Assembly: GCF_002572525.1 (NCBI RefSeq)
Contig: NZ_PDBS01000001.1
Coordinates: 2,790,001 to 2,854,000, forward strand
DNA from: Natrinema sp. CBA1119
GTDB taxonomy: Archaea; Halobacteriota; Halobacteria; Halobacteriales; Natrialbaceae
Length of the DNA: 64,000 nt
Direction: 5' to 3'
Positions within the stretch are counted from its first letter, which is position 1. Each line of letters begins with the position of its first letter. Under the pieces are notes generated by a model. It saw nothing but the letters and a program-made list of their open reading frames with translations, was not told the DNA's origin and made no database searches. Positions 8,226 to 62,430 of the stretch are shown here, piece by piece. Position numbers and translations under genes: made by a program.

Positions 8226-8323
8226 ACGCGCCGCTTCGTGCGCTCCGCTCACCGGGATCCTCGAGACCGGCGTCTCGGCCTCCTGACCATGAAACCGATC
8301 ACGACCGACCGACGAGGTCCCCC

Positions 8324-9544: not shown

Positions 9545-9756
9545 ATTCGAACGACGCGCCCCGAACGGACGTACCTTTCACTGTTCGACGGACAGCGGGC
9601 TGGTTGTGACGGCCCAGATGCGGACGAAAAACGGATGGCAGCGGGCCGATATCGAGGCCGACCCGTGGTTGCTCGAGCCGCCTCCCGACTCGAGGCGTCA
9701 GCCCCAACCCACGTCGTCCGATTCCCCCTCGAAATTCGGTGCCAAAACAGGTCTCC

Positions 9757-43451: not shown

Positions 43452-44402
43452 CTAGCGCCTGTCGTCCGACTGCTCCTGCACGTCTGACTCCTTGCGGTCG
43501 TCTCTCACGTCTGTTTCGTCCTCGCGAACATCTCCATCGGCGTCCCAGCGACACGTCACCAGCCAGTCGCTCCGCTCGTCGCCGGGGGCTATCTCGAGTC
43601 GGATCGGTCGCTCGAGTCCGGCGGCGAACCCGACCGCGAGAAACGAGGCGATCGGATGATCGAAGCGGTCGATATCGCCGAACGTGCTGTCGGTGACGGC
43701 GACGGTGATGCGACTCGCGGCGGGGTCGACGTCGGGTTCGGCGCTGCCCGCGAGTTCGAACTGCTCGACGAGGCCGTCCGCGAGCTGGGTGGCGAGCGGG
43801 GCCGGCGCGGTCGCGAGTTCGTCGGTCAGCGTGCGTTCGAACTCCGCGAACAGCGCCGCGCCGGTCGGCTCGAGGACGAGCCCGCGGTGGTCGGGATCGG
43901 TCAGAATCGGGCCGTCGAGTTCGTCGGGCACGGTATCGGTCGTCCGCTGGGGGACGTGCAGGCGCACACCGGCGGTATCGTCGGTCGGGAGATAGACGTG
44001 GTCGTCGCTCAGCCCGAGTTCGTCGGCGATTACGGCCTCGTTGGTCGCCATCGCGGCGTAGATGCGTTCGCCGACGGCCGCGGTGACGAAAGAGCCCGGC
44101 GTCAGGTAGTAGGTGAGCACCCCGCCGAACAGCCCCACCGCGGCGAGCGCGAAGAGCACGTCCCGGTTTGCGGGAAAGAGGATCGCGGCGACGGCGGTAC
44201 AGATGCCAATGAGGCCGAGCCCCGCCGCAGTGCGGCGATACTGCGACTGGCGAGCGCGCGCGTACTCCGCCCGCAGTCGCCTGTTTTCCCGCTCCAAGAG
44301 CTCCGCTCTCGCCGCGAGCTCGAGCCGGTCGTCTCGTTCGTCCGTTCCGTCGGTCTCCGGGTCGGTCGTCGGCTCGTCCAGATCGATATCACTCGTACTC
44401 AT
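43452..44402 (-). CDS. Conserved haloarchaeal membrane protein of the MoxR cluster
   Basis: The 316-residue protein begins MSTSDIDLDEPTTDPETDGT, has a short coiled coil (LELAARAELLERENRRLRAE), then two membrane helices (AGLGLIGICTAVAAILF; VLFALAAVGLFGGVLTYYL), and a soluble domain of about 200 residues (VAAVGERIYAAMATNEAVI, VRLHVPQRTTDTVPDELDGP). No enzyme motif is evident and I cannot name a family with confidence. Its start overlaps the stop of the next upstream gene by 4 bp, placing it last in a DUF58-led minus-strand operon. Confidence 0.7.
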   Translation of the reverse strand: MSTSDIDLDEPTTDPETDGTDERDDRLELAARAELLERENRRLRAEYARARQSQYRRTAAGLGLIGICTAVAAILFPANRDVLFALAAVGLFGGVLTYYLTPGSFVTAAVGERIYAAMATNEAVIADELGLSDDHVYLPTDDTAGVRLHVPQRTTDTVPDELDGPILTDPDHRGLVLEPTGAALFAEFERTLTDELATAPAPLATQLADGLVEQFELAGSAEPDVDPAASRITVAVTDSTFGDIDRFDHPIASFLAVGFAAGLERPIRLEIAPGDERSDWLVTCRWDADGDVREDETDVRDDRKESDVQEQSDDRR

Positions 44403-44980
44403 GTGTCTGTCGGGGGGTCGGCGGTCGGTTCCGCGGGCGGCTCTGTCGATGATTCGGGCGGTGAATCGGCGGTCGCGTTACGGCCGGTCGGCGGTGACGG
44501 GCCGTCGCCGTCGGCCGGTACCAGTCCGAGCCGAACGAGCTCGTACCGGTGGAGCCCGTACGCGATGAACACGCCGAGCGCGAGTACCGTTGCGGCGGCC
44601 AGTCCGACCGACTGCGAGTCGACCACGAACCATGCCGTTCCCGCCAGCGCGATCGCACTCGCGACCGCGGCGAGCGCGATCCGACCGGGGCTGTCGGTCC
44701 GACGGAGGGGCGCGAGCAGGACGGCCACGAACGCGGCTTCGACGGGGAGGACGGAGAGCGGCTCGATCCCGTTCGGGACGACCGCGACGAGCGCGACGTG
44801 GCCGAACGCCAGGGCGTACGGCGGGCCGAGCAGGTAGCCCACCGCAGCAGTAGCGATCCCCGCGAGCAGGCCGAGCGGACCGGCGACGACACCGAACGCG
44901 GCGACGAGGGCTGCGAGCGAGGCGATCGTCAGCCAGTCGCGGCTCGTCGCGGCCGGAACCGCGTCGATTCGGGTACTCAT
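44399..44980 (-). CDS. Multi-pass membrane protein of the MoxR cluster
   Basis: The 193-residue protein has about five hydrophobic helices (WLTIASLAALVAAFGVVAGP, GLLAGIATAAVGYLLGPPYA, LAFGHVALVAVVPNGIEPLS, VLPVEAAFVAVLLAPL, VGLAAATVLALGVFIAYGL) and a Pro/Ser/Thr-rich C-terminal tail ending PTADPPTDT. It overlaps the DUF58 gene by 4 bp upstream and the next gene by 4 bp downstream. No family is recognised with confidence; DUF7519 is a possibility from memory. Confidence 0.7.
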   Translation of the reverse strand: MSTRIDAVPAATSRDWLTIASLAALVAAFGVVAGPLGLLAGIATAAVGYLLGPPYALAFGHVALVAVVPNGIEPLSVLPVEAAFVAVLLAPLRRTDSPGRIALAAVASAIALAGTAWFVVDSQSVGLAAATVLALGVFIAYGLHRYELVRLGLVPADGDGPSPPTGRNATADSPPESSTEPPAEPTADPPTDT

Positions 44981-46563
44981 GCGCGACCACCGCTCGTTCG
45001 GCCCGCTTCGAGGACGGCCGACAGCCGGTCGGCCGGACCGACCTCGAGCGCCGTCACACCGTCCATTCGAGCGAGTTCCCGACGGAACTCCTCGAACTCG
45101 ACGTACCGATCGTAGGCGCGCTCGACGTCCGCCAGACCGCCGGGCTCGTAGAGCACCGATGGAGCGAGCAGGACCATGATCTCGTTTCCGCCCCGCCGCG
45201 CGAGCGCGACCGTCTCGCGGAGCTCCGCCGGCCGCGAGTCGTCAGTGCAGATCACGCTCCAGACCGCGCCCTCCGCGTTCGCTATCCCCTTGCGGACCGC
45301 TGCGTACAGCGGGTCCTCGACGATGCGCTCTCGATACACCCGGCGGTCGGCGTAGAAGGGACGCAGCGTGCTCGCGAACGCGTCATCGGCCCCTTCGAGA
45401 TCTGCGAGCGAGCGGTGAACCTCCGCGGGGGTAGTGCGCCGTCGCGCGACAGAGGCACTCCCGGCACCGCCGCTGATCCCAGCGGACGGGCTCGTCGCAA
45501 CGGCTTCGGCCGACGACGCGCCCGCATCGGACGGACCGGCCGACGGGGACGTTTCGTCTCTCGAACCGCTCGCCGACGTCGCGTCGGCCCGACCGGAGAT
45601 GGCCGTCGCGGGAGTCGCGTCCCCGTCGGCCGTCGGCTCGAGCGCCAGGAGCCGACGCCGGATCGAGCTATAATTGGCGGCCGGCGAGGCCAGATCGAGG
45701 CTGCCGGTGATGCCGTCGTCGCCGACCGTCACCAGGCCGATCGGGTCGTTGAGTCGGCGCGCGTTCCCCGCGATGACGAGCGCGATCTCGCGGAGCGCCT
45801 CGAGTTTCGTTTCGGTCCGCGGCCCGACCGACAGCGCGGCGCGGTGATCGACGACCAACAGCGTCTGGCGGGCGGTTTCGGTCTCGTACTCGCGGACGTA
45901 CGGCGTCGTGTGTCGCGCCGTCGCCTTCCAGTCGATCTCCGCCCCCGTATCGCCCGGGACGTACTCGCGCAGCTCGGCGAGCTCGATCCCCGATCCCGCT
46001 CGGCCGGCCTCGTGGGTCCCGTAGGAGGCGGCGGTCCGGTCGCCGCCCTCGCCGACGTGGATCGTCCGCGGGGTGGGCGGCTCCACCGTCACCGTCGGTC
46101 GCGGACCCGCGGTGAGCGTTTCGCGGAACAGCCCGTCCGTCGCCGTCACGGTCGCCCCGTCGAAGGAGTGGTGGCCGGCGACGGGCCACCCGATCGTCCG
46201 CGTTCGATCCGCGCGCTCGCTCTCGGGCTCGAGCGTGAGCACGAGCCGATTGGTCGCGTCGGCCGCGACCGGCACTCCGGCGGCGATCTCGAGCGTGAGC
46301 GCCGTTTCGGCCCCGCGCGTCGCAGCGAGCGTCACCGGGACCTCGTCTCCCGTTCGAACGCTGGTCCGGGCGGGAGACTGGTCGATCGACAGCGAGTCGA
46401 CCGTTCGCTCGAGGTCCCGGCCGAAGCGATACTGGTGGGCCAGCAGCCACGCGCCGACGAGGGCCGCGCCGGCGAGCACGAACGGACGTGCGAACACCAC
46501 GGCGAGGACGGCGAGCACCGCGGCGAGCGCGGCGACCGTCCATCCCTGGCGCGTGGGATACAT
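44977..46563 (-). CDS. DUF58 domain protein (vWA-like, MoxR partner)
   Basis: Starting at the ATG at 46563, the 528-residue protein has two N-terminal membrane helices (WTVAALAAVLAVLAVVFA; VLAGAALVGAWLLAHQY) and then a beta-sandwich region. The DUF58 hallmark follows: LREYVPGDTGAEIDWKATAR and HTTPYVREYETETARQTLLV, leading into DHRAALSVGPRTETKLEALR. DUF58 proteins work with MoxR ATPases. A Ser/Ala-rich low-complexity insert (about residues 315-375) interrupts the C-terminal domain. First gene of a three-gene operon. Confidence 0.9.
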   Translation of the reverse strand: MYPTRQGWTVAALAAVLAVLAVVFARPFVLAGAALVGAWLLAHQYRFGRDLERTVDSLSIDQSPARTSVRTGDEVPVTLAATRGAETALTLEIAAGVPVAADATNRLVLTLEPESERADRTRTIGWPVAGHHSFDGATVTATDGLFRETLTAGPRPTVTVEPPTPRTIHVGEGGDRTAASYGTHEAGRAGSGIELAELREYVPGDTGAEIDWKATARHTTPYVREYETETARQTLLVVDHRAALSVGPRTETKLEALREIALVIAGNARRLNDPIGLVTVGDDGITGSLDLASPAANYSSIRRRLLALEPTADGDATPATAISGRADATSASGSRDETSPSAGPSDAGASSAEAVATSPSAGISGGAGSASVARRRTTPAEVHRSLADLEGADDAFASTLRPFYADRRVYRERIVEDPLYAAVRKGIANAEGAVWSVICTDDSRPAELRETVALARRGGNEIMVLLAPSVLYEPGGLADVERAYDRYVEFEEFRRELARMDGVTALEVGPADRLSAVLEAGRTSGGRA

Positions 46564-46704
46564 GTCTGAACAGATCCCGGTGACCGTGTTCAAAGTACTG
46601 GTTACACGTCGCGATTCGAGTCGGGGCGGGAAGACGAAGAGGGACAGGCGGTACCCGCGGTGGACGAGACGTGCTAGACCCGCTCTCGAGAGAATACCTT
46701 ATCC

Positions 46705-48825
46705 GTGTGCGCTGCGAACCGCTCCGCTGTGACTACCGCCGTCGGCCGCGTCCTAGTGGTCGCCCTCCTCGTCGTCTCGATGACCGTTATCGGCGGGATC
46801 GCTTTCACGGGCACGTCTATCGCGGCCGACGGCGACGCCGGCCCCCAGCTCGCCGTCCAGCAGAACGGAGCCGACGGGGAATCCAACGAGACGCCCTCCC
46901 ATCGGAACCCGGACGAGTACTCCGAGGACGGCGACCTCGGGGGCGTTCAATCGCAACTGGCGAGTCAGCTGGGCAGCCAGCTCGGACAGGGGGCGATCCA
47001 GTTGAGCGAGGGCGAGTACGATGCAGCCAGCGAGTACGTCGATGACGAGTACCGCGAGCAGTTGGGACAGTACGTCGAGGTCTCGGGCGAGACCGAGAAC
47101 GAGGGGATCGGCGACGAGTTCGAGGCGGCCGGCGAGACGCAGGCCAACCTGTCCGAATCCGTCCGGGAGTACCGGGAAACGAAAGACGAGTACGATACCG
47201 CCTACGAGGCCGGCGAGGACGAACGCGCACGCGAACTGGCCCGCGAACTCGAGGCGCTCGCGGAGGAGATCGACGCTCTCGGCGGCTCGGTTCGCGAGAG
47301 CTACGAGCGGATCCAGTCGGAGACGGGCACCGATCTCTCGGAGTCGATCGCGGCGGTCGAGACCGTCACCGAAGACGTTCGGACCCAACAGGCGACGGTT
47401 CGCGACCAGCAATTCGAGGAAACGTCGCTGACGCTGTCGCCGGAGCGCGAGGCGATCTCGTTCACGGAGCCGCTCGTCGCGACGGGCGAACTGCGGGACG
47501 CGGAGGGGACGGCGATCGCGGATCGGGAGATTACCCTCGCCGTAAGGAACCACACACAGCGGGTGACGACGGACTCGACGGGCGGGTTTACGTTCGAGTA
47601 CCGTCCGACCAACCAGTCGCTGTCGGCGGAGAATCTGACGGTCGAGTACGTGCCGCGGACCCAGTCGGTGTATCTGGACGACGAGGCCACCGTCAACGTC
47701 TCGATCGAGCGCCAGGCGGAGCCGACCGTGTCGCTGGACGATAGTACCGGCTCCGTGTCGTACGGCGACGAGGTGGCCGTCACCGGCGAGCTGGCGGTCG
47801 ACGGCATCCCCGTCGACGGCGTCGCGCTCGACGTCGTCCTCGGGGGCGAGCGAATCGGGACGGCCAACGTCACGGACGGCGAGTTCAACGGGACGGCCAC
47901 GGTTCCGGCGTCCGTCCCCGACGGGGAGAGCGAACTGGGCGTCCGCCTGCCGTTCGAGGAACGGGCCCTCGCCGCGACGGCCGACGCGACGACCGTGACG
48001 GTGGAGGAGACCGAGAGCGCGCTCTCGATCGAGGCTGCGTCGAGCGGCGATCGGACGGTCTCGGTCAACGGCACGCTCGAGACGGCGGGCGGCGACGGGG
48101 TCGAGGGTGAGACGGTCCAGATCCGGATCGACGGGCTGAGCGCCGGAACCGTCACGACCGCCGCCGACGGGACGTTCAGCGGGACCGTGTCCGTTCCGGA
48201 TTCGGTCTCTGGGGGTGACGTGTCGGTCACTGCCGCCTACGACGAACGCCGCTCCAACGTCGCGTCGGCGACGGCCGAATCGGTCGTCTCTGTCGGCGGT
48301 ACGGGGCTCCAACTGCCGCTGTCGGTCTGGCTCGGCGGCGGGCTCCTCGCCCTGCTCGGAGTCGGGCTCGGCGTCTGGTGGTACCGCCGCTCTCGCCGGG
48401 TCGATTCCGTCCCGACCGTGCCGGTGGGCGGCGATGACTCCACCGCGGGCGGGACGACCGTCGCGGACCGTTCGCCGGACCCGGCGTCCGACACCGTCGA
48501 ACCGCTCCTCGAGCGAGCGAGCGAACAGCTGTCGAACGGCCGGCCGGACGATGCGGCGCGAACGGGGTACGCCGCCGTTCGGCGGGCGCTGGCGTCGCAG
48601 ATCGACGGGCCCGACGCGCTGACTCACTGGGAGTTCTATCGGCGGCTTCGAACCGCCGACGCGGCGGACGCCGCGTTACTCCGCGACGTGACGCGGGAGT
48701 ACGAACGCGCCGCGTTCGATCCCGGCGGCGTGTCTCCGGACGAGGCGGCGAGCGTCCTCGAGCGAGCGCGGCAGCTGTGCGATCTCGACGAGTCCTCGGA
48801 CGGTGGCGTTCCCGCGGACGACTGA
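46705..48825 (+). CDS. Secreted/membrane DUF4129 protein with Ig-like repeats
   Basis: The 706-residue protein starts with GTG at 46705 (an in-frame GTG at 46729 is an alternative) and has a signal helix (RVLVVALLVVSMTVIGGIAF). The extracellular part contains a Gln/Glu-rich helical region (about 60-225) and Ig-like or carboxypeptidase-regulatory-like repeats (about 240-520; SVSYGDEVAVTGELAVDGIP). A membrane helix lies near residue 540 (SVWLGGGLLALLGVGLGVWW), then a cytosolic DUF4129 domain (RTGYAAVRRALASQIDGPDA, LTHWEFYRRLRTADAADAAL). DUF4129 usually accompanies DUF58 and MoxR. It is divergent from the DUF58 gene. Confidence 0.82.
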   Translation: MCAANRSAVTTAVGRVLVVALLVVSMTVIGGIAFTGTSIAADGDAGPQLAVQQNGADGESNETPSHRNPDEYSEDGDLGGVQSQLASQLGSQLGQGAIQLSEGEYDAASEYVDDEYREQLGQYVEVSGETENEGIGDEFEAAGETQANLSESVREYRETKDEYDTAYEAGEDERARELARELEALAEEIDALGGSVRESYERIQSETGTDLSESIAAVETVTEDVRTQQATVRDQQFEETSLTLSPEREAISFTEPLVATGELRDAEGTAIADREITLAVRNHTQRVTTDSTGGFTFEYRPTNQSLSAENLTVEYVPRTQSVYLDDEATVNVSIERQAEPTVSLDDSTGSVSYGDEVAVTGELAVDGIPVDGVALDVVLGGERIGTANVTDGEFNGTATVPASVPDGESELGVRLPFEERALAATADATTVTVEETESALSIEAASSGDRTVSVNGTLETAGGDGVEGETVQIRIDGLSAGTVTTAADGTFSGTVSVPDSVSGGDVSVTAAYDERRSNVASATAESVVSVGGTGLQLPLSVWLGGGLLALLGVGLGVWWYRRSRRVDSVPTVPVGGDDSTAGGTTVADRSPDPASDTVEPLLERASEQLSNGRPDDAARTGYAAVRRALASQIDGPDALTHWEFYRRLRTADAADAALLRDVTREYERAAFDPGGVSPDEAASVLERARQLCDLDESSDGGVPADD

Positions 48826-49023
48826 CGGCCCGTTCGCGGGAGACGCCGTTTCCCCGTTTGTGACGCTCCGTTCCTCGTTCGCGGAGATCATTCGTCCCCG
48901 ACCGCCAGATCTTATTTCAGTACATATTTATCAAGAATATTGATGGTGTCATCCGTGTGAAAAAGATATAAGCGAGCGGATGGAGGACGGGAAACGTAGC
49001 TCGAATTACCGTTCGAGGGGAGT

Positions 49024-50319
49024 ATGAGTGACACACGATCAACCGATTCAGCGGGTGGTATCGAGCACAAAACGGCCTTTCCGCGAGCGGTCGTCCACAA
49101 GCGGATCCTATCCGTCGCGGAAGCGCGACCGGACGCGTCGATGGAAGCTATCGCCGACGACGTCACCGGTGCGACCACGTCGCTCGTCGAGCAGGTACTC
49201 GAGGAGTACGGCGACCCGGGACACGTCGCGGCCGACGAACCCGTGTCGGAACTGGACGACGACGACCGAAGCGGTGAGGCGGATCCGAGCGGGGATGTCG
49301 ATTCAAGCGAGGATGCCGACCCGAACGGGGACCGCGGTCCGAGCAGCGACGATGATCGGGAATCGGTCGGGGCGGACGATGATTCGACGACCGGGGGGGA
49401 ACAGCGTTCGACAGCGGACGACGACCGCGATTCCGGAGTGACCCATTCAGCTATGAGCACCCACGACAGTCCCGACGAGAGTCGACCCCTCGAGACGGCC
49501 GATATCACCGAGAAACAACTGGAGACGCTGCGCGAGATCGAGAACCGTCCGAACGCGACGCAGGCGGAGCTCGCGGAGCGACTCGGCGTGACCAGCGCGA
49601 CCATCAGTCAGCGGGTCAACGGGATCGACGGCTTCGACTGGTCCGAGCGCCAGACGTTCGTCGCGCGACTGTTCGACCGGTCGGACCCCTCCTTCGAGAC
49701 GGACGACGCGAACGCCGACGGGGAAGCCGGGATCGACGCGGCGACGAACGAAACCGCGAGTGCCGCTGACGATCTCGACCAAGAGTCGGCCGAGAGCGCG
49801 TATACTGACGGGACGGGACCCGATGATACGGAACCCGCAGTCCGTGCGGGTGGGCCCGACGAGGACACCGCGGTCAGTGCGAGTGGATCAGACACGGATC
49901 GTTCAGGTACGGCGCGCGGAACCGAGGAGTCCGACTCACCGGGGGCAGACTCCCTCGAGGGCGACTCACCCGAAGCCGACGCGCTCGAGGCCGGCGAGTC
50001 CGCGGATCGCGAGGGTCGCGCGTCCGACTCAGTGGCCACGACGCACGCGACGGGTCCCGGCGCTCGAGACGGTCGTCCCTCGACCGGAAGTCCCCTCGCG
50101 GACGAGCGTGCGAGCGCGGGGACGGCGACGAACGAGGACGACGAAATCGATGAACTCGCCGCACGGGTCGAAGCGCTCGAACGCCAACTCGCGAGCGACC
50201 AGTCGGTCTTCGGAGATCCCGAACTCGTGCACAAGGTCGCACACGCCTGTCTCGACTCCGAACAGATCTCGGACGCCGAGGAATTGCGGATTCTGAAGCA
50301 GTTACTCACGACCCGCTAG
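49024..50319 (+). CDS. Acidic winged-HTH protein with long disordered linkers
   Basis: The 431-residue protein has an N-terminal helical motif (HKTAFPRAVVHKRILSVAEA and VTGATTSLVEQVLEEYGDPG), an acidic low-complexity segment (about 78-150), and a winged HTH (about 158-215: TEKQLETLREIENRPNATQA, ELAERLGVTSATISQRVNGI). A second Asp/Glu/Ser/Gly segment follows to about 375, and the C-terminus has a coiled coil (DELAARVEALERQLASDQ). The HTH resembles MarR-like or Lrp-like DNA-binding domains. It may be a haloarchaeal transcription regulator; target unknown. A GATATAAGC element lies about 55 nt upstream. Confidence 0.7.
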   Translation: MSDTRSTDSAGGIEHKTAFPRAVVHKRILSVAEARPDASMEAIADDVTGATTSLVEQVLEEYGDPGHVAADEPVSELDDDDRSGEADPSGDVDSSEDADPNGDRGPSSDDDRESVGADDDSTTGGEQRSTADDDRDSGVTHSAMSTHDSPDESRPLETADITEKQLETLREIENRPNATQAELAERLGVTSATISQRVNGIDGFDWSERQTFVARLFDRSDPSFETDDANADGEAGIDAATNETASAADDLDQESAESAYTDGTGPDDTEPAVRAGGPDEDTAVSASGSDTDRSGTARGTEESDSPGADSLEGDSPEADALEAGESADREGRASDSVATTHATGPGARDGRPSTGSPLADERASAGTATNEDDEIDELAARVEALERQLASDQSVFGDPELVHKVAHACLDSEQISDAEELRILKQLLTTR

Positions 50320-50329
50320 CGGTCGTCCT

Positions 50330-50368
50330 CTAATAGTCGATCAGAAACGACGCATCGAGGACCTTCAC
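50330..50368 (-). pseudogene. Truncated vapC toxin remnant (12 codons)
   Basis: After the antitoxin, a GTG start overlapping its stop (GTGA) opens a frame reading M-K-V-L-D-A-S-F-L-I-D-Y before TAG at 50330. That is the classic beginning of a VapC PIN domain, with the first acidic residue Asp5. The frame then ends 11 bp from the end of the HTH gene at 50319, so the rest of the toxin has been lost. Too short to be functional. Confidence 0.65.
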
Positions 50369-50613
50369 GCGCTGTTCTCGGCCCGTTGGCGCATTCGCTC
50401 CTTGCGCTTTTCCCTGGCTTTCCGGCGACCCTCACGGACGCTCTGTGCTTCCTCACCGGACCAGCGACCAAACCCATCGGAGAAGTCGCCCGCGGTCTTC
50501 TCGCCAAGTACACGCTCGAGGACATCGTTGTAACTCTCGCCTTCGCGCTTCCGTTTCTCCAGTTCGCGTCTCACCGTGTTGCTCACTCGGATCTGCTCAT
50601 CGACCGTGCCCAT
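50365..50613 (-). CDS. VapB-like antitoxin (orphan)
   Basis: The 82-residue protein starts MGTVDEQIRVSNTVRRELEK and has the RHH-type DNA-binding end, followed by RKREGESYNDVLERVLGEKT and a very basic tail (REGRRKAREKRKERMRQRAE), as in haloarchaeal VapB antitoxins. Its toxin partner is present only as a 12-codon remnant, so the pair is broken. It may persist as a regulator or as an antidote to toxins elsewhere. Confidence 0.75.
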   Translation of the reverse strand: MGTVDEQIRVSNTVRRELEKRKREGESYNDVLERVLGEKTAGDFSDGFGRWSGEEAQSVREGRRKAREKRKERMRQRAENSA

Positions 50614-50618
50614 CTTAC

Positions 50619-50636
50619 GTCGACAATCGTGTTGAC
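50619..50636. promoter_or_regulatory. Candidate VapB operator
   Basis: GTCGACA and TGTTGAC, separated by ATCG, form a near-perfect inverted repeat (6 of 7 matches) just upstream of the antitoxin ATG at 50613. Such sites are typical for antitoxin autorepression. Confidence 0.35.
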
Positions 50637-50780
50637 GCTACTTGGTCTTTGGTCGGGCTCGTCGAGAAGTGGGGATATCTCGGCGGGTTTTCCAGAGAGG
50701 GAATCAACTGAACATTCGATCTTACCCCCGTGGCAGTTCATCGATTCGTTTTTACCTCCGTTGGCAGTACTAGCGATCGA

Positions 50781-51902
50781 ATGGTCGCGTTCCGGTCGTT
50801 GTGGCTCCTGCTGCCACGGCCACTCAGACAGTTACCGGCCGATCTCGCCGCGGTGGTCGTGCTCGTCGTCGCGACGAACGTCGCCGCACTGGCACCCGTG
50901 ATTCGGGAGACGCCTCTCCGGGTCCCGCTCGGCCTCGCGTTCGTGTTGTTCGTGCCCGGCTACGCGTTCATCGCGGCGCTGTTTCCCGAGGCCGGCGAGT
51001 CGCCGGACCGCTCCGACGAGCCGGACACACCGACTGAGAGCGAGACGGCCGAGGGTGCCGATTCGGACGGCTGGTACGACGCCGTCTCCTCGCGGTCCGG
51101 GATCGACGGCCTCGAGCGCGTCGCGCTCTCCTTCGGACTCAGCATCGCCATCGTCCCGCTCATTGGGCTCGTATTGAACTTCACGCCCTGGGGCATTCGA
51201 CTCGTCCCGATCGCGGTTTCCGTCAGCGGGTTCACCCTCGTGTCGGCCGCCGTTGCGGCCGAACGTCGGCGGGACCTCCCGGTCGAGGAGCGGTTTCAGG
51301 TCCCCTATCGGGCGTGGTACGCCGCCGGCCGGACGGAGTTGCTCGAGCCGGATACGCGCGCGGACGCCGCGCTGAACGTATTGTTAGTCGTGTCGGTCAT
51401 CCTCGCGGTCGGGAGCGTCGGCTACGCGGTGATGGTCCCGCCCGACGGCGAGCAGTTCTCGGCGATCTATCTGTTGACCGAGGACGACGAGGGCGAGTTG
51501 ATCGCCGACGACTATCCGACCGAACTCGTTCAGGGCGAGAGCCAGGAGCTGGTCGTCGGGATCGACAATCACGAAGGGGAGCGGACGGAGTACACGGTGG
51601 TGGTCCTCGAGCAGGACGTCGAGGTGGTCGAGAACGAGACGGCCCCCGAGTCCGGCGACCCGAACGCGACGGTCAACGAAACGGTCGTCCAGGAGCAACG
51701 CGAACTCGACCGGTTCGAGACCACGGTCGCGAACAACGAGAGCTGGCACCAGACGTACGACCTCGAGCCGACGATGACCGGCGAGAATCAGCGCATCGTC
51801 TGGCTCCTCTTCCCCGGCGGCGACGTGCCGGCCGAGCCCTCGATGGCGGACACGGAATACTCCGTCCACCTCTGGGTAGACGTCTCCGAGTCGAACGACT
51901 GA
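50781..51902 (+). CDS. DUF1616 membrane protein (glycosylation locus)
   Basis: Read from ATG 50781, the 373-residue protein has four or five membrane helices (AAVVVLVVATNVAALAPVI; LGLAFVLFVPGYAFIAALF; VALSFGLSIAIVPLIGLVLN; LVPIAVSVSGFTLVSAAVAA; LNVLLVVSVILAVGSVGYAV) and an extracellular C-terminal DUF1616 domain (FSAIYLLTEDDEGELIADDY, YPTELVQGESQELVVGIDNH). DUF1616 genes commonly neighbour agl genes in haloarchaea. A GTTTTACC box lies 27 nt upstream. The next gene is a dolichol-phosphate-type glycosyltransferase. Confidence 0.85.
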   Translation: MVAFRSLWLLLPRPLRQLPADLAAVVVLVVATNVAALAPVIRETPLRVPLGLAFVLFVPGYAFIAALFPEAGESPDRSDEPDTPTESETAEGADSDGWYDAVSSRSGIDGLERVALSFGLSIAIVPLIGLVLNFTPWGIRLVPIAVSVSGFTLVSAAVAAERRRDLPVEERFQVPYRAWYAAGRTELLEPDTRADAALNVLLVVSVILAVGSVGYAVMVPPDGEQFSAIYLLTEDDEGELIADDYPTELVQGESQELVVGIDNHEGERTEYTVVVLEQDVEVVENETAPESGDPNATVNETVVQEQRELDRFETTVANNESWHQTYDLEPTMTGENQRIVWLLFPGGDVPAEPSMADTEYSVHLWVDVSESND

Positions 51903-51925
51903 GGTACGTTTTTGGTCCGTTCGAG

Positions 51926-51954
51926 AACAATATAGTTTCTTATATTATATTGTT
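51926..51954. terminator. AT-rich hairpin after the DUF1616 gene
   Basis: AACAATATA (51926-51934) and TATATTGTT (51946-51954) are perfect inverted arms around an 11-base T-rich loop, 24 bp after the stop codon. The position fits a transcription terminator or 3' end structure. It is followed by more AT-rich sequence leading into the glycosyltransferase promoter (CGTTTATGG at 52051). Confidence 0.4.
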
Positions 51955-52198
51955 TCGGATAGATTAGCGTTTTCGGCCACAAGGTTTGAATACTAGAAGA
52001 GATCGCCCCATCTCCACTAGTAAAAGGTGTTATACTATCCTAAGACCGAACGTTTATGGAACGGTTTGCAGTAGGTGTGATCAGTCAATACTGAGTAATC
52101 CCGATACAGCTATCGGGCAACTGATATAGGCGATCACGGACCGGACCGATCGGGCCGTACTGAACCCGGTGACCCGGGACTTGGACAAACCGACCACT

Positions 52199-53473
52199 AT
52201 GAGCACGTCAGACGGGGGAGACCGAGGCCAGCCGAAGCCAGCCGAATCGACACCACGACCGCGAGCGGACGAACTCGACCAGCGGGAGGGGGAGGACGAA
52301 CCGGCCGTCCGCGACCTGGAGGGCGACGAGTTGCTCCTGGGTCGGGACAGCGAGCAGCAGCCGACGATCAGCGTCGTCATGCCGACGCTCAACGAGGAGG
52401 ACGGCGTCGCCGAATGCATCCGGCGGGCGAAGACGGCGATCACCACGCTCGGGTTGCCCGCCGAAATCATCCTGAGCGATAGCTCGACCGACCGGACGCC
52501 CGAAATCGGTCGGGAGATGGGTGCGATCATCTACGAACCCGATCAGCCAGGGTACGGCTACGCCTATCGGTACGCGTTCGACCGCGCCCGCGGCGACTAC
52601 ATCGTCATGGGCGACGCCGATACGACCTACGACTTCGAACAGATCCCGCGCCTGCTCGCCCACCTCCGCGACGAGGACGCCGATATGGTGATGGGAAGCC
52701 GCCTCGAGGGAGAGATCAAACCCGGGGCGATGCCGTCTCTGCATCAACACGTCGGCAATCCGCTCCTGACGAAGTTCCTGAACGCCTTCTACGGGGCCGG
52801 GGTGAGCGACGCCCACAGCGGCTTTCGGATCTTCACGAAGGAAGCCTACGAGACGATGGAACTCGAGACGACCGGGATGGAGTTCGCCAGCGAGATGATC
52901 ATGGAGGCCGGCGCGAAGGACCTCCACATCGTCGAAACCCCGATCGTCTACCACGAGCGGGAGGGCGAGGAGACCCTCGAGAGCTTCAGAGACGGGTGGC
53001 GACACGTCCGGTTCATGCTCGTGAACGCGCCGGGCTACCTGTTCTCGGCCCCGGGGCTCCTGTTGGGTGTCGTCGGCCTGGTCGTCATGGGGGCCACGTT
53101 CAGCGGTGTTTCCGTGGGCGGCGTGAACTTCGGGATCCACTCGATGATCGCCGGGAGCCTGTTGACGATCGTCGGCTATCAGATCGGCACGCTCGGCGTG
53201 TTCGCCTCGGTGGCAAGCGACCCCATCCGGAAACCCGAGGATCCGATCACCGAGCGCCTAACGGAGTCGCTGTCGCTCGAGCACGGCGCGACGGTCGGAC
53301 TGGCGGTGTTCGGCGTCGGCAGCGCGTACGCGCTGTCGTTACTCTATCAGTGGATGAACAACGGGTTCGCCACGCTCGAGTTCACGATGGGATCGCTCAT
53401 CGCGTTCACGGCGATCGTCATCGGCCTCCAGACGGTGTTCTCGTCGTTCTTCCTGAGCGCCGTGAACCGGTAA
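52199..53473 (+). CDS. aglJ: AglJ-like polyprenyl/dolichol-phosphate glycosyltransferase (GT2)
   Basis: The 424-residue protein has an acidic extension (about 1-55) and then a GT2 catalytic domain: ISVVMPTLNEEDGVAECIRR, AEIILSDSSTDRTPEIGREM and the nucleotide/metal-binding YIVMGDADTTYDFEQIP. Four C-terminal membrane helices follow (YLFSAPGLLLGVVGLVVMGA to GSLIAFTAIVIGLQTVFSSF). The layout matches haloarchaeal AglJ, which loads the first sugar on dolichol phosphate for S-layer N-glycosylation. ATG 52199 is used; a GTG at 52169 is possible. The nearest TATA (CGTTTATGG at 52051) implies a leader of about 120 nt. Confidence 0.8.
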   Translation: MSTSDGGDRGQPKPAESTPRPRADELDQREGEDEPAVRDLEGDELLLGRDSEQQPTISVVMPTLNEEDGVAECIRRAKTAITTLGLPAEIILSDSSTDRTPEIGREMGAIIYEPDQPGYGYAYRYAFDRARGDYIVMGDADTTYDFEQIPRLLAHLRDEDADMVMGSRLEGEIKPGAMPSLHQHVGNPLLTKFLNAFYGAGVSDAHSGFRIFTKEAYETMELETTGMEFASEMIMEAGAKDLHIVETPIVYHEREGEETLESFRDGWRHVRFMLVNAPGYLFSAPGLLLGVVGLVVMGATFSGVSVGGVNFGIHSMIAGSLLTIVGYQIGTLGVFASVASDPIRKPEDPITERLTESLSLEHGATVGLAVFGVGSAYALSLLYQWMNNGFATLEFTMGSLIAFTAIVIGLQTVFSSFFLSAVNR

Positions 53474-54509
53474 CTGCGGGTCGGTCGGGGCTTTTTCGGG
53501 TCGTTTTCGCGGTGTCGAACCAGACGGTCAGTCTTGCAATTGATTAATTGCCGAGAATGCGAGCCGACTGGGATCGTCACCCGGTGTGGGTAGCTGTCGT
53601 CGGAACGGTGACTGCGAACGGAGCAGTGGATTCCGATGGGCTCGAGCGAGGCGAAGCGTCCTGCTATCGTGGCAACAGGGAATCGCCACGCGCCCTCCCC
53701 AGCCGATTCGCTCGCACCTTACGGCGCTCATTCACCCTTGCGGAGTATCGCCAGCCGCCCTCACTGTGCTCACGGTTCCCTGCGGTCACCGCTCGCTTTC
53801 CGAGACGCTCGGTCGGCCGCCAGCGCGCGCCACCGCACTTCGGTGGGTCAGGCCGGATGATACATGTGTCCTCTACACTTGCCGCCCCAACGTTTGACAA
53901 GTCATTCTATTTAGCATCGACGTTAGTCTCAAACGAGGAGACAACTGTAGTCGAGACAGGCTAGTTATCCACATCCGCACTAATAACGGACGATGCACTT
54001 GTTGGCCCCCTATTTCTGCCAGAACAATGGTACCTGTCCCACGCAAGGATGGGTGTTCGGGCCAATAGAACTGGAAGCATTCTTTGACGTTTCCTTTTGG
54101 ATTTGTGGCGGGTCCTCTGGCGTGCCTTTGGCTACTTGTTTCATTCTTGTCCGGTCGAGATACAACCATAGGTGAAGCCTATCGAGTCGCTATACGTCTG
54201 CCTACTGATTCTTCGTATGTCGCTCCAGTACTACCATCCTCTGTAATAGTTCTCTCACAAATGTACAAATTAAAGATACTCTAATGGATATAGGTTAAGT
54301 ATTCACAATCTGGAGGGGAATCGACACAAATCATAGAATTTTCCGACGGAATGGCATTTCTGTGTCATACTTATGGGTTCCTATCAGATTTCACGGGTTG
54401 TTATGTGGCGGTCCAGTAACTACTCATCAGGACTAAGTGATAAGGCTCATTTTTAACCTGGCTTCCGATATTGATTAGATATTTGTATTTTGGAAACCCG
54501 TGTTTGATT
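53474..54509. other. 1-kb gene-poor region, left part of the AT-rich island
   Basis: I see no convincing gene. GC-rich sequence to about 53840 gives only arginine/serine-rich frames. After about 53870 the sequence turns AT-rich. A frame near 54084-54284 encodes a hydrophobic stretch (FPFGFVAGPLACLWLLVSFL) that may be a remnant of a membrane protein, but it has no clear start and no homology I recognise. Confidence 0.45.
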
Positions 54510-55184
54510 ATGTCTGCACCAACTTTCGCTGGGCGTATTCTGCAGTATATTCCAGAAGGCCCTCGACGGAAGTTCGTAGGCGCTTTGAACCGATTCCACC
54601 CCCTCAATTTAGTACTCTTGTACTCGCAAAGCATTCTGACAAAGTATGGGTGGTTTAAATCCCGTGCAAGGGGAGCTCCAGTAAATAAGAACGGTGAAGA
54701 GATCCCCTGGATGACTTATAGCTCAATTAATTTCCTTGACGAACGGTTAGCCGGCACTCGTCTCTTCGAATATGGAGGCGGAAATTCGACGGTCTGGTAC
54801 GCAGACCGAGCATCCAAAGTCGTCTCAGTTGAGGATGATGAGAAGTGGTATCGTAAAATAAAGCCACTAATGCCGGAGAATGCATCACTTCACCACATCT
54901 CTGCAGAAACCTATGCTAATTCGATTCAATCCCGAGGCCCCTTCGATGTGATAATCATTGATGGTCTTGACCGTAATCAGTGTATTGAGGCCGCTGTCCC
55001 TGAACTATCCGATTCGGGTATTATTATCTTAGACGATGCCCAACGTCAGAAATACAAAACGGGTAAACAGAAGCTTCGCGACGAGGGTTTCAGCCATATT
55101 GAATTCGAGGGGCTCAAGCCAATAAACCGGATGCCAGCAAAGACGTCAGTGTATTATAGGGAAAACAATTGCTTGGGTCTCTGA
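54510..55184 (+). CDS. SAM-dependent methyltransferase-like protein
   Basis: From ATG 54510 the protein has 224 residues. The motif LFEYGGGNSTVWYADRASKV followed by VVSVEDDEKWYRKI matches motif I and the acidic loop of class I methyltransferases, and GPFDVIIIDGLDRNQCIEAA is motif IV-like. The sequence is notably lower in GC and less acidic than its neighbours, suggesting transfer. A TATTTGTATTTT box lies about 27 nt upstream, favouring this start over the TTG at 54471. Possible role: methylating a surface sugar (inference). Confidence 0.65.
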   Translation: MSAPTFAGRILQYIPEGPRRKFVGALNRFHPLNLVLLYSQSILTKYGWFKSRARGAPVNKNGEEIPWMTYSSINFLDERLAGTRLFEYGGGNSTVWYADRASKVVSVEDDEKWYRKIKPLMPENASLHHISAETYANSIQSRGPFDVIIIDGLDRNQCIEAAVPELSDSGIIILDDAQRQKYKTGKQKLRDEGFSHIEFEGLKPINRMPAKTSVYYRENNCLGL

Positions 55185-55273
55185 GGAAACCGTCCTCATT
55201 CATCTTTCTCCAATTCCTGCGTGGGGTGTGTCGAATCATCTTGTTTCTCAAGCGCCGTAGTGATCAACTTGCC

Positions 55274-55453
55274 TCAGCAGTGAACGGTCGAGTTCACGAC
55301 CTCGTACTTCGTCCGACTCTCCGTATCAATTGCTGCCGCGGTAACTCCTTCTCGCTCAAACGCACGTAGTATCGCGTTCATCTGCGAGTATTCCAGACCG
55401 CGGATAGTCTCCTTCTCTTCGTAGCCGTCGTAGACTTTGATGTCGTATGTCAT
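55274..55453 (-). CDS. Small protein beside the beta-helix gene (59 aa)
   Basis: The frame from ATG 55453 to TGA 55274 encodes MTYDIKVYDGYEEKETIRGL and EYSQMNAILRAFEREGVTAA, ending KYEVVNSTVHC. It starts 17 bp after the end of the interrupted tail-like frame on the same strand. It lacks membrane or metal motifs. Compact size and tight spacing fit a virus-derived module, but no family is recognised. Confidence 0.6.
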   Translation of the reverse strand: MTYDIKVYDGYEEKETIRGLEYSQMNAILRAFEREGVTAAAIDTESRTKYEVVNSTVHC

Positions 55454-55469
55454 TGTGTTCTTGTTCTCA

Positions 55470-55685
55470 TTACCTATCTATCCGGTTGACAGTCGGGTAA
55501 GTGAACTCTGGGTTATCCATGTTCACATCAATCGATGAGCTGTCAGAATGACCAGCCTCGAATTTTATTGCCCGTCCGGCGTTGAGGTCTTGCGTATCTT
55601 GGATCGTGATCGTCTCGTTGACCGACCCGCCGGCCTCATACTCATTTATGACCCGTTGGACTCCTGTTGTATCCGCTATTTGTAA
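55470..55685 (-). pseudogene. In-frame continuation of the beta-helix protein after an amber codon
   Basis: Directly after the TAG at 55688-55686, the same frame stays open for 71 codons to TAA at 55470. The peptide LQIADTTGVQRVINEYEAGG continues naturally from the preceding WISPPAGTRL and ends NPEFTYPTVNRIDR. It reads as the second half of a jelly-roll (C1q/TNF-like) tail domain. A single change (for example GAG to TAG) would create this break, so it is either a recent nonsense mutation or a readthrough site. Confidence 0.7.
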
Positions 55686-56813
55686 CTACAGCCGAGTTCC
55701 TGCTGGCGGACTGATCCACTGAACCTGGGCCTTGATTTCATACCGTCCCTTTACCGGAGTTTCATACTGGAAACTCCCGGGCTGTGCGCCGCCTCCATAG
55801 TCGTAATCCACTGTGTCAAATTCAAGCACCTCAGCATTGTTGCCCAATGTGTTCGTGCTGATGGTTTGGTCGGACGTGGATCCGTTAAACCGTGCCCCAG
55901 AGGGCCGTGGGTAAATTCGGTTTTCTTTTTGGTAGACTGACAACCCCAGAACATGATTGAATAAGCCTTTACCTGCACTAACGTTGGTGTCCTCGATCAC
56001 CGCAAAACTCCCGTCATCGGTCCAGATCAGATAGTCGTTGACGGTGCCGGTAGTCAGATCGCCAAATGTGTCAATAGAGACCATCGAGTTGTGCTTTGTC
56101 TCGATGCCGAGGGTGAGGTCACTGGATCCGAAGTCGCACCCGTCGCGAATGGTGGCGGTAGAGGAATAGATCAAGAACCCGCGATCAGCAGCACACCCCT
56201 CGAAACTCACCTGCCGAAACGAGACGTTTTGACAGCCATACACCGGCACAGACACTGGCTCATCGCTTCCCGGGGCCTCCCCGAGGAAATTCACGCCCTC
56301 TATGACAGGGGCGATCGCGCCCTGCGACCCGACCAATGTGGCAGAGTTGAACTTTACGTTTGTCGGAGTTGTGGGGTTCCCACGAATCCAAGGGACGAGT
56401 GCTGCGCCCTCCTCAATACTGCTGTTACCGGCGTCATCATGGCCAACAATGTCGGCAGTCTTGAATGGGGGGATGAAGATATTCACATTAGAATAATTCC
56501 CGTCTGGGATATTGATCACAAATTCGTGTGCGATTACCTCAGGGATGTCGGGGATCCAAAATTCATGATCCGTCCCGCCAACGCTAACAGTGACGGAGTC
56601 TCCGCTAGGGTCCGCAGTCCGGTCGACCGGTCCAGTTGTGATCTTATCGCGGCCCGAAGGATAAACATACTGTCCGGATTGGTTGATTGATAGACGATCT
56701 ACACTTGCCTGCCCGATACTTGTCTGATCGAATTCAATTGGGACCTCGTCTCCCGTCTCCGGGTCAACCCCAACGATCGTTCTGTCCTTGTTAACGAGTT
56801 TGATGTCTGCCAT
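55686..56813 (-). CDS. Virus tail-fibre-like right-handed beta-helix protein (interrupted)
   Basis: The 375-residue frame begins MADIKLVNKDRTIVGVDPET, has a repetitive Ser/Thr/Gly-rich middle with strand-turn patterns (NVKFNSATLVGSQGAIAPVI, VSFRQVSFEGCAADRGFLIY, ATIRDGCDFGSSDLTLGIET) typical of a right-handed beta helix, and starts a C-terminal domain FQYETPVKGRYEIKAQVQWI. This resembles receptor-binding or tail-spike proteins of haloarchaeal tailed viruses and proviruses. A TAG interrupts the C-terminal domain, so the product as encoded lacks about 71 residues. Lower GC than neighbours. Confidence 0.65.
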   Translation of the reverse strand: MADIKLVNKDRTIVGVDPETGDEVPIEFDQTSIGQASVDRLSINQSGQYVYPSGRDKITTGPVDRTADPSGDSVTVSVGGTDHEFWIPDIPEVIAHEFVINIPDGNYSNVNIFIPPFKTADIVGHDDAGNSSIEEGAALVPWIRGNPTTPTNVKFNSATLVGSQGAIAPVIEGVNFLGEAPGSDEPVSVPVYGCQNVSFRQVSFEGCAADRGFLIYSSTATIRDGCDFGSSDLTLGIETKHNSMVSIDTFGDLTTGTVNDYLIWTDDGSFAVIEDTNVSAGKGLFNHVLGLSVYQKENRIYPRPSGARFNGSTSDQTISTNTLGNNAEVLEFDTVDYDYGGGAQPGSFQYETPVKGRYEIKAQVQWISPPAGTRL

Positions 56814-56816
56814 GGT

Positions 56817-57110
56817 TCAGGTGCTAATTTCTTCGAGTTCAAGTTCTGCGTCGGTTTCTAAGGCGAGACTGCCGGTCTGTTCCCAGCGAACAGCGTCGTA
56901 CGATTCTTCATCTGCAACTGTGTACTGCTTGCCCGACTTGATCACCAACTCATCGATTGGTTCTGGCGACTTATGGTCAGTCGTAGCGGCCTCTTCCGTT
57001 TCTGGTTCTTCAGGGCCGGTATCAGAATTAGTACTACAACCCGCGATTGTCGCTATAGAGCCTACCCCAACGAGACCGAGAACATCCCGCCGGGTGGTTC
57101 CGAGATCCAT
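56817..57110 (-). CDS. Small Tat lipoprotein (97 aa)
   Basis: The protein has a Tat signal (TTRRDVLGLVGVGSIATIAG) ending in a lipobox cysteine (AGC), a Glu/Thr-rich linker and a short domain with ELVIKSGKQYTVADEESYDA and VRWEQTGSLALETDAELELE. The short beta-rich domain resembles modules in haloarchaeal provirus-associated proteins (from memory). It lies 3 bp upstream of the beta-helix gene on the same strand, so the two are co-transcribed. Confidence 0.65.
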   Translation of the reverse strand: MDLGTTRRDVLGLVGVGSIATIAGCSTNSDTGPEEPETEEAATTDHKSPEPIDELVIKSGKQYTVADEESYDAVRWEQTGSLALETDAELELEEIST

Positions 57111-57154
57111 CTACGAGGGGGGTTATAACTAATCATTGATAAACCATCTGTAGA

Positions 57155-57364
57155 TCAATTCACTGTAGATGTATCTTCGAGTACAATCTCGTCGACCGTA
57201 GCTTCCGAGAACTGTGCTGAGGGTGCCCGGTTCAGCTCGTCGGCCGTCTCCGCAGCCGTGTCTACGATCCCGATCTTCAGCGACGGCTCCGACGGCGCAC
57301 TGCCAGTCGTGTTGGTGACGATCTCGAGCGCTTCGTCGTCCCATACCCCCCGTCCGAAGACAGA
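57155..57364 (-). pseudogene. C-terminal fragment of a virus-like protein
   Basis: The last 69 codons of this frame (SVFGRGVWDDEALEIVTNTT, then LKIGIVDTAAETADELNRAP and EATVDEIVLEDTSTVN) are acidic and protein-like, whereas the frame before them is arginine/serine-rich and runs into the zinc-finger gene. It is therefore probably the truncated 3' end of a larger gene from the same module. The break near 57365-57440 would be the right-hand edge of the island. Confidence 0.5.
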
Positions 57365-57443
57365 GCGTTCCGAACAGGTCGACGGCAGGGTCGCTATGCG
57401 TCTGTGGCTCGATGCGGACGGCCGTGAGCGGGTTCGGCGACGG

Positions 57444-57611
57444 CTACCAGAACTGGGCGGCCGGCGTGTCGCAATCGCCGCAGACGACGGCGTCATTCCC
57501 CTTGTAGCGCTCGCGCGTCAGTGCGTCTCCCCCACAGTACGAACACGTCCCCTGCTGGATCGAGGCCAGCGCGGTCTCCCGGTCCCCTTCGTGCGTCGTT
57601 TCGAGTGCCAT
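57444..57611 (-). CDS. Small zinc-finger protein (55 aa)
   Basis: From the ATG at 57611 the protein reads MALETTHEGDRETALASIQQ and GTCSYCGGDALTRERYKGND, then VVCGDCDTPAAQFW. CSYC and CGDC form a two-knuckle zinc site. The start is supported by a GGTATATGTG box about 27 nt upstream on the minus strand. It resembles small haloarchaeal zinc-finger proteins of unknown role. It marks return to typical host sequence after the island. Confidence 0.7.
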   Translation of the reverse strand: MALETTHEGDRETALASIQQGTCSYCGGDALTRERYKGNDAVVCGDCDTPAAQFW

Positions 57612-57967
57612 CTGTCTGGTATGACATCTGAGGGTCACATATACCTTCTGGCAAGGATAGCACGACCGATCCCGTCGCCTCGAGCGCAGTCGCATCGATC
57701 GTAGTCAGCAGTGTTGATTCCCGGACCGAACTCTTCGTGGACGCTGACTGCGTTACTTCGTTTTCACGTCTGCGGGACGGATAACCGCTGCGGGACGGAG
57801 TGGCCGTCGTCCCGACTTACCCGCTCTCGAGGACTGCACTCTGCATGTCACCCAACCGAACCGGGGAGCGTACCCGCATGCTTTCACTCTCTCACACTCG
57901 TACTAGTCTCGTTCTCGTCCGTTTTCGACCGGAAAACCCATATGACGGAGTCGACCAAGTAGACGCT
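57612..57967. other. Divergent promoter region of the zinc-finger gene and aglF
   Basis: The 356-bp gap has no credible gene. On the minus strand GGTATATGTG (57635-57644) serves the zinc-finger gene. On the plus strand CCATATGAC (57937-57945) lies about 27 nt before the aglF ATG at 57968. The middle is ordinary GC-rich sequence. Confidence 0.5.
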
Positions 57968-58711
57968 ATGAAAGCCGTCGTACTCGCTGCGGGAGAAGGA
58001 ACGCGGCTCCGACCGCTCACCGAGGACAAGCCGAAAGGGATGGTCGAGATCGACGGTGATCCGATTCTCACGCACTGTTTCGACCGGCTGGCATCGCTCG
58101 GTGCCGACGAGCTGATCGTCGTCGTCGGCTATCTCAAAGAGCGGATTATCGATCACTACGGCGACGAGTACCGAGGCATTCCGATCACGTACTGCCACCA
58201 GCGCGAGCAGCAGGGACTCGCCCACGCGTTGCTGTCCGTCGAGGAGCACATCGACGACGACTTCATGCTGATGCTCGGAGACAACGTCTTCGAGGCGAAC
58301 CTCGAGGACGTCGTCCGTCGACAACGAGAGGATCGGGCGGACGCGGCGTTCCTCGTCGAGGAGGTGCCGTGGGACGAAGCGGATCGCTACGGCGTCTGCG
58401 ATACAAACAAGTTCGGGGAGATCACCGACGTCGTCGAGAAGCCCGACGATCCGCCGTCGAATCTGGTGATGACCGGGTTCTACACATTCACGCCGGCGAT
58501 CTTCCATGCCTGTCACCTCGTGCAGCCGTCGAATCGCGGCGAGTACGAGATTAGTGAGGCGATCGACCTGCTGATTCAGAGTGGCCGGACGATCGACGCG
58601 ATCGGACTCGAGGGCTGGCGGATCGACGTCGGCTATCCGGAAGATCGAGACGAGGCCGAGGAACGGTTGGAGACACGTTCTCAATCCGAGACAGAGTCCG
58701 TCTCCGACTGA
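57968..58711 (+). CDS. aglF: Sugar-1-phosphate nucleotidyltransferase (AglF-like)
   Basis: The 247-residue protein begins MKAVVLAAGEGTRLRPLTED, the nucleotidyltransferase signature with activating KPKGMVEIDG, and has MLMLGDNVFE (metal-binding Asp) and VEKPDDPPSN. It resembles haloarchaeal AglF, a glucose-1-phosphate uridylyltransferase of the N-glycosylation pathway. There is no C-terminal beta-helix, unlike the RmlA-type gene in this locus. Start fits a leaderless transcript with a box 27 nt upstream. Confidence 0.82.
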   Translation: MKAVVLAAGEGTRLRPLTEDKPKGMVEIDGDPILTHCFDRLASLGADELIVVVGYLKERIIDHYGDEYRGIPITYCHQREQQGLAHALLSVEEHIDDDFMLMLGDNVFEANLEDVVRRQREDRADAAFLVEEVPWDEADRYGVCDTNKFGEITDVVEKPDDPPSNLVMTGFYTFTPAIFHACHLVQPSNRGEYEISEAIDLLIQSGRTIDAIGLEGWRIDVGYPEDRDEAEERLETRSQSETESVSD

Positions 58712-61965: not shown

Positions 61966-62430
61966 TTATCCGCTCGGTTCTTCGTCCCAGTCTAAAGGTA
62001 TTTTGTCCGTGTCGTAGGGGATTCGTTCCTCGTCGGGATCCTCGTAGTCGTAGAGCTTCGACGGGAAGTTGAGCAGGAACGCCGGCTCGTCGCTGATGGC
62101 CTTGAAGCCGTGCCAGCAGTCCCCCGGAATGCGGATCGCCTTCTGGTTATGTTCTCCGATGATGAAGGTGTTTAGTTCTCCTTCCGTGGGGGAGTCCTCG
62201 CGATCGTCGTAGATGCCGACCTTGATACGCCCTTTCGGGCAGATGAAATGGTCGATCTGGCCCTCGAGGTGGCGATGCCAGGCTCTGGTGATGCCGGGGT
62301 AGGTCATCGAATAGTAGGACATCTCAGGATCCGGGTCGTAGAGTTCCCAGTCCTCGCGGAAGACTTCCACGAGATGACCGCGTTCGTCGGCGTTTATTTG
62401 GAGGTCTTTGACCTCCACACCATGGATCAT
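61966..62430 (-). CDS. rmlC: dTDP-4-dehydrorhamnose 3,5-epimerase-type cupin
   Basis: The 154-residue protein starts MIHGVEVKDLQINADERGHL and contains ITRAWHRHLEGQIDHFICPK, where the histidine pattern matches the RmlC active-site strand, then IRIPGDCWHGFKAISDEPAF and LNFPSKLYDYEDPDEERIPY. It is shorter than classic RmlC (about 180) but of the same double-stranded beta-helix fold. In this gene order it supplies the missing 3,5-epimerase step. A TTATAACC box about 27 nt upstream marks a leaderless operon start. Confidence 0.88.
   Translation of the reverse strand: MIHGVEVKDLQINADERGHLVEVFREDWELYDPDPEMSYYSMTYPGITRAWHRHLEGQIDHFICPKGRIKVGIYDDREDSPTEGELNTFIIGEHNQKAIRIPGDCWHGFKAISDEPAFLLNFPSKLYDYEDPDEERIPYDTDKIPLDWDEEPSG

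Follow-up and report, generated by a model that had tools for sequence, protein, structure and literature searches.

A probably nonsense-mutated tailspike gene in a viral remnant within a haloarchaeal surface-glycan locus

Spike protein and its described relatives

Tail spikes are usually modular in make-up, and the closest described counterparts of the one analysed here are gp29 of Haloarcula sinaiiensis tailed virus 1 (HSTV-1; AGC34574.1), whose virion status is taken from its GenBank label 'virion component', and HALG_00044 of Halorubrum virus CGphi46 (AGN33832.1). A host protein with a beta-helix and a C1q domain (genome G194, locus L013) is also comparable, and lies in a polysaccharide locus with flippase, Wzy-like polymerase and nucleotidyltransferase genes nearby. 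Finally, a Natrinema thermotolerans plasmid-provirus (CP031301.1) encodes a tail protein, a lipoprotein and a spike in that order (DVR14_01430, an unannotated ORF and DVR14_01435), together with terminase, portal, minor-tail and many other virus genes.

In the 64,000-nucleotide stretch of Natrinema sp. CBA1119 DNA analysed as a whole (the window), homology, PHROG and structure modelling identify a tailspike or tail-fibre gene of the HSTV-1 gp29 type at 55470–56813 on the minus strand, interrupted by an in-frame TAG at codon 376 (55686–55688). HSTV-1 gp29 matches spike residues 87–444 at 47% identity and HALG_00044 matches the spike at 40%, both alignments crossing the stop, and with the stop entered as X the profile of PHROG 1627 (a family of viral proteins that has no function assigned to it) covers residues 87–444 at E 1.8e-68. 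Membership in this family is thus supported by the profile match, whereas the frame is broken by the TAG. A reading of the letters alone (the sequence-only reading) had guessed at a virus tail protein, a guess backed by gp29 and its GenBank label. The spike shares its beta-helix body and C-terminal domain with gp29, which differs in being uninterrupted, in belonging to a complete virus and in having an N-terminal region of another kind. HALG_00044 (565 aa) is likewise uninterrupted and has a longer N-terminal region; the G194 protein, also uninterrupted, is 28% identical to the spike.

The spike comprises three modules with approximate limits: an anchor (residues 1–53), a beta-helix (~87–305), for which the Pfam NosD and Beta_helix matches both fell under their cut-offs, and a TNF/C1q-like domain (~340–447). 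The N-terminus is of the virus anchor type, with no signal peptide apparent by eye, and its residues 3–53 are 73% identical to the N-terminus of the CP031301.1 spike, the body of which is a different beta-helix protein. The same anchor of about 50 residues (56655–56807 in the window) is joined to differing beta-helix bodies in four loci (the window, L010, L016 and L017), suggesting module swapping near residue 53. Between residues 73 and 95, ten relatives carry a [ST]-[IVL]-Q-x-A motif that by eye is absent from this spike; the stretch is in frame and equal in length to that of HSTV-1, and we count the missing motif neither for nor against a second lesion.

The C-terminal domain is a predicted TNF/C1q-like jelly roll. 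Pfam C1q matched the G194 relative over its cut-off (E 3.7e-6) and the HSTV-1 relative under it (E 0.0033), and a Pfam search of this spike's own domain returned no family at E 0.01, C1q included. A profile of the domain matched TNF-family EDA-A2 weakly in the PDB (E 0.074). A full-length model was set aside (mean pLDDT 42.0), and residues 300–447 were modelled with HSTV-1 as the sole other alignment row (mean pLDDT 59.6, core mostly 71–81). Foldseek placed TNF-family chains on top in the PDB, with CD40 ligand best (E 4.3e-6, TM about 0.5) and C1QL1 (8.2e-5) among the best 50, so that the moderate-confidence model shows the jelly-roll fold. The top viral-library hits were HSTV-1 gp29 and CGphi46, the HSTV-1 match not being independent of the model. 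Codon 376 falls in a predicted strand (model residues 74–81, spike residues 373–380), and of the nine model strands the stop would cut one and remove four. The location of the stop inside a jelly-roll-like domain, proposed from the letters, is supported by the C1q matches of two relatives and the TNF/C1q hits of the model. From its fold, this domain may be the trimer-forming part of the spike.

The amber codon and the sequence behind it

Read on the minus strand, the frame runs from an ATG at 56813 through 375 codons (56813–55689) to the TAG at 55688–55686, and beyond it remains open for 71 sense codons up to a TAA at 55472–55470. These coordinates, re-read, are exactly those of the sequence-only reading, which had also called the 71 codons protein-like. 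Openness by itself is weak evidence, because simulating the local DNA with a first-order Markov model gave an open run of at least 71 codons in 6.8% of 20,000 trials. Searched by themselves, the 71 residues hit HSTV-1 gp29 (BLASTP E 1.3e-11) and CGphi46 HALG_00044 (E 1.8e-8), with none of 1000 shuffles equalling either match. Against the G194 protein BLASTP gave no significant match, and again 0/1000 shuffles equalled the score, by a narrow margin (61 vs a best of 57). G+C at the three codon positions is 0.54/0.39/0.56 after the stop, similar to 0.56/0.45/0.60 before it, and the other two frames contain several stops. Sequence comparison therefore settles by homology that the 71 codons are real protein-coding sequence, and the codon-position G+C agrees with the earlier description.

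We then compared relatives at the stop position, as the sequence-only reading had proposed. Among 391 genomes of the class, 25 matched, one of them the source genome itself. In a profile alignment of the other 24, the stop position is covered by 12, similarity is limited to the beta-helix in 11, and one (L038) was not recovered and is left out; with HSTV-1 and CGphi46 this gives 14 spanning relatives, one of which (L033) has only four residues aligned past the stop. All 14 have an amino acid at this position (Trp in six, Arg in three, Gln in two, and Ala, Leu and Tyr in one each), and none ends at codon 376. Similarity is confined to the C-terminal part in 11 of the 12 spanning genomes, so full-length comparison rests on HSTV-1, CGphi46 and G194. 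Searches for closer relatives returned none among viral contigs by protein or by DNA pattern and only HSTV-1 by profile, and none among the genome contigs searched; the five matching genomes besides its own among 199 relative genomes are, like the 24 of the class, only distant ones.

The same comparisons bear on the age of the stop. Behind it, the spike shows 35% identity with each of HSTV-1 and CGphi46; between these two viral proteins the value is 32%. Identity to G194 over this part (64–66 residues) is 20% for the spike, 29% for HSTV-1 and 27% for CGphi46, compared with 31%, 34% and 32%, respectively, before the stop. From these values, decay behind the stop is not clearly visible. This pattern fits a recent change and would also fit a gene still read through; we regard the nonsense mutation as probably recent.

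Several searches addressed whether UAG could be read as sense in this genome. The sole PylS match, at 30.9 bits, fell short of the 178.15-bit cut-off; in control genomes the same model gave matches in 13 of 14, one of them over the cut-off. No CUA anticodon occurs among 47 tRNA hits (42 named directly by ARAGORN, five through its intron option), a set that lacks tRNA-Trp and is thus incomplete; one tRNA from the intron option was assigned as Glu(ttc) but could be a Gln tRNA spliced incorrectly. Rfam found no PYLIS element in 53400–58000. Pyrrolysine or suppressor decoding thus found no support in any of the three components sought, the tRNA component being judged on that incomplete set. TAG also terminates four of the 14 other listed features, namely an HTH gene, rmlB, rmlD and the zinc-finger ORF. 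According to a review of archaeal recoding (PMC8211752), demonstrated stop readthrough in Archaea involves selenocysteine and pyrrolysine, and frameshifting has been reported in haloviruses. Among the matches listed by a narrow open-licence literature search, no title dealt with a haloviral tail gene carrying an amber codon or with a glycan locus that holds a tail remnant.

An invertible tail-fibre system of the phiCh1 type was also considered and set aside, as no inverted repeats bracket the 3' end of the spike gene; the only inverted-repeat pair touching the gene (16 nt, 88%) joins 56568–56583 with 57767–57782.

A viral cassette, probably inserted, in a host glycan locus

Directly upstream of the spike gene lies a minus-strand gene (56817–57110) for a lipoprotein of 97 aa, with a Tat-like motif and a lipobox recognised by eye. 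The protein is 48% identical to its CP031301.1 counterpart, 41% to that of G177 and 39% to that of G142, and had no match in phages. Next to it, also on the minus strand, lies what remains of a virus tail-region gene, its 3' end (57155–57340), which is 76% identical to residues 114–167 of the 169-aa CP031301.1 protein. Its 5' two thirds are missing, and the remainder of the CP031301.1 protein had no match in 56700–58000; the remnant is thus already defective. The order tail gene, lipoprotein, spike is common to CP031301.1 and G177, and G142 has lipoprotein and spike. Because CP031301.1 also encodes terminase, portal and minor-tail genes, we take the cassette to be viral; unlike the segment described here, the plasmid retains a complete tail gene. 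Just downstream of the spike gene, a 59-codon minus-strand ORF (55274–55453) had no phage match at E 1, no match in other genomes among the 199 relatives and no PHROG.

The window and the 40 kb that follow it were queried with ORFs of 70 aa or more from the CP031301.1, HSTV-1, CGphi46, G142 and G177 loci. No further genes of these viruses were found: the matches were the cassette, its antisense frames and one other of 34 residues (E 0.001), taken as chance. The region searched accordingly holds no complete provirus with its terminase, portal, capsid and remaining tail genes.

In phage T5, the lipoprotein Llp is encoded beside the receptor-binding protein. By analogy, the spike-adjacent lipoprotein is a candidate superinfection exclusion factor; if it acts in this way, the locus would offer a compact model of archaea keeping viral parts. 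The lipoprotein lies directly upstream of a spike in four loci (56817–57110 in the window; L010, 19697–20002; L016, 9362–9691; L017, 9669–9971).

The segment at 53480–57436 is absent from two same-genus genomes, in which the site is empty. With G025 the blastn match breaks off at 53479 and picks up again at 57437, these points being 143 bases apart in G025; with G016 the corresponding positions are 53472 and 57445, and the gap there is 325 bases. G+C is 0.46–0.54 in 54001–57000 vs 0.62–0.71 in 44001–54000, and this low G+C together with the viral content favours gain of the ~4 kb over loss in the relatives; gain is the most likely history.

Both flanks are host genes. On the left is a GT2 glycosyltransferase (52169–53473, plus strand; Pfam GT2 E 1.9e-25), 79–81% identical in G025 and G016, with AglJ as its closest NCBIfam model (149.5 bits, under the cut-off of 325). 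On the right is a small zinc-finger-like ORF (57444–57695, minus strand) with DNA matches in three same-genus genomes. These two genes adjoin in G025 and G016; G018, the remaining genome that matches the zinc-finger ORF, has no GT2 within the 16 kb taken. Beyond the zinc-finger-like ORF in the window follow an AglF-type nucleotidyltransferase (57962–58711, plus strand; NCBIfam AglF over cut-off) and then rmlB, rmlD and rmlA to 61962, with the NCBIfam dTDP-glucose dehydratase, rmlD and rmlA_long models over their cut-offs; 61966–62430 is labelled rmlC by reading alone and had no NCBIfam hit. From the GT2, AglF and rml genes we identify a surface-glycan locus, of the N-glycosylation type as judged by AglF.

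The left half of the insert (53480–55184) contains a methyltransferase-like ORF (54471–55184, plus strand; Pfam Methyltransf_24 E 3.8e-5, just under cut-off; GC3 0.47) with no match in 28 other same-genus genomes or in phages. A 108-base stretch (53658–53765) matches six places in Natrinema plasmid CP031304.1.

Readings of the interrupted spike

We consider it highly probable that the spike is a nonsense-mutated orphan tailspike gene in a provirus remnant inside a host glycan locus. A tailed haloarchaeal virus would have left three pieces stranded there, namely a tail-gene 3' end, a lipoprotein gene and a receptor-binding spike gene, and the spike gene, without a virus to serve, would have taken a nonsense mutation at codon 376. 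Losing the spike would cost no virus anything, because the gene is stranded in a remnant outside any virus. Termination at the TAG would give a product of 375 residues whose C-terminal jelly roll is incomplete and which is most likely non-functional. Against this reading, the lipoprotein frame and, apart from its TAG, the spike frame are open. An error in the assembly, with the gene actually whole, would take a single base, since one base separates TAG from a sense codon; we judge this improbable, given that the contig holding the stop is 4.09 Mb long, that the genome is rated 99.59% complete and that the flanking tail gene is independently truncated, which makes a broken spike gene no surprise. 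The sequence-only reading had posed a nonsense mutation against readthrough yielding two tail forms. The former is favoured by the sense codon in 14 of 14 relatives, and the latter gained no positive support. Partial readthrough by a near-cognate or suppressor tRNA, producing a short and a long spike, would fit a post-stop frame that is unbroken and conserved to the degree seen among working relatives, and the tRNA set examined is incomplete; with no PylS over cut-off, CUA anticodon or PYLIS found, neighbouring genes ending in TAG, the stop absent from all spanning relatives and no virion left in the defective remnant to show two forms, we hold it to be very unlikely.

The short form might instead benefit the host by binding glycans or, acting together with the lipoprotein, by warding off related viruses. 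The upstream lipoprotein frame is open, and distant beta-helix relatives with Tat-like or lipobox N-termini occur in host glycan loci (L064 and L067). The spike itself, however, begins with a virus-type anchor rather than an apparent signal peptide, and 0/14 relatives end at this place, leaving such use with very little likelihood. Least probable of all is that the host kept the remnant, the lipoprotein guarding against related viruses and the amber making the spike harmless or a short glycan-binding form; were this true, a host-recognition cassette would have been turned from attack to defence within a surface-glycan locus.

With a nonsense-mutated gene in a stranded remnant as the preferred explanation, the interruption is a real finding that resembles the everyday decay of viral DNA left stranded. 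A possible case of haloarchaeal stop-codon recoding is thereby closed, since the evidence fits a stranded virus gene that acquired a nonsense mutation of the ordinary kind, and the locus adds an example of a haloarchaeal tailed-virus host-recognition cassette left in a host surface-glycan locus.

Two further observations concern the relatives. PLSDB lists 'Brucella suis mprF' on the haloarchaeal plasmid CP031301.1 at 16962–17096 (L010, 483–617; 100% over 135 bp), probably a false prediction. Distant beta-helix relatives in four genomes (L063 in G246; L064 in G399, 8160–9608; L065 in G022; L067 in G289, 9474–10766) have Tat-like or lipobox starts by eye. Those of L064 and L067 match PHROG 1627 and adjoin glycosyltransferase, flippase, sulfatase or phosphodiesterase genes; by their sequences, the virus spike domain and secreted proteins of host glycan loci appear related.
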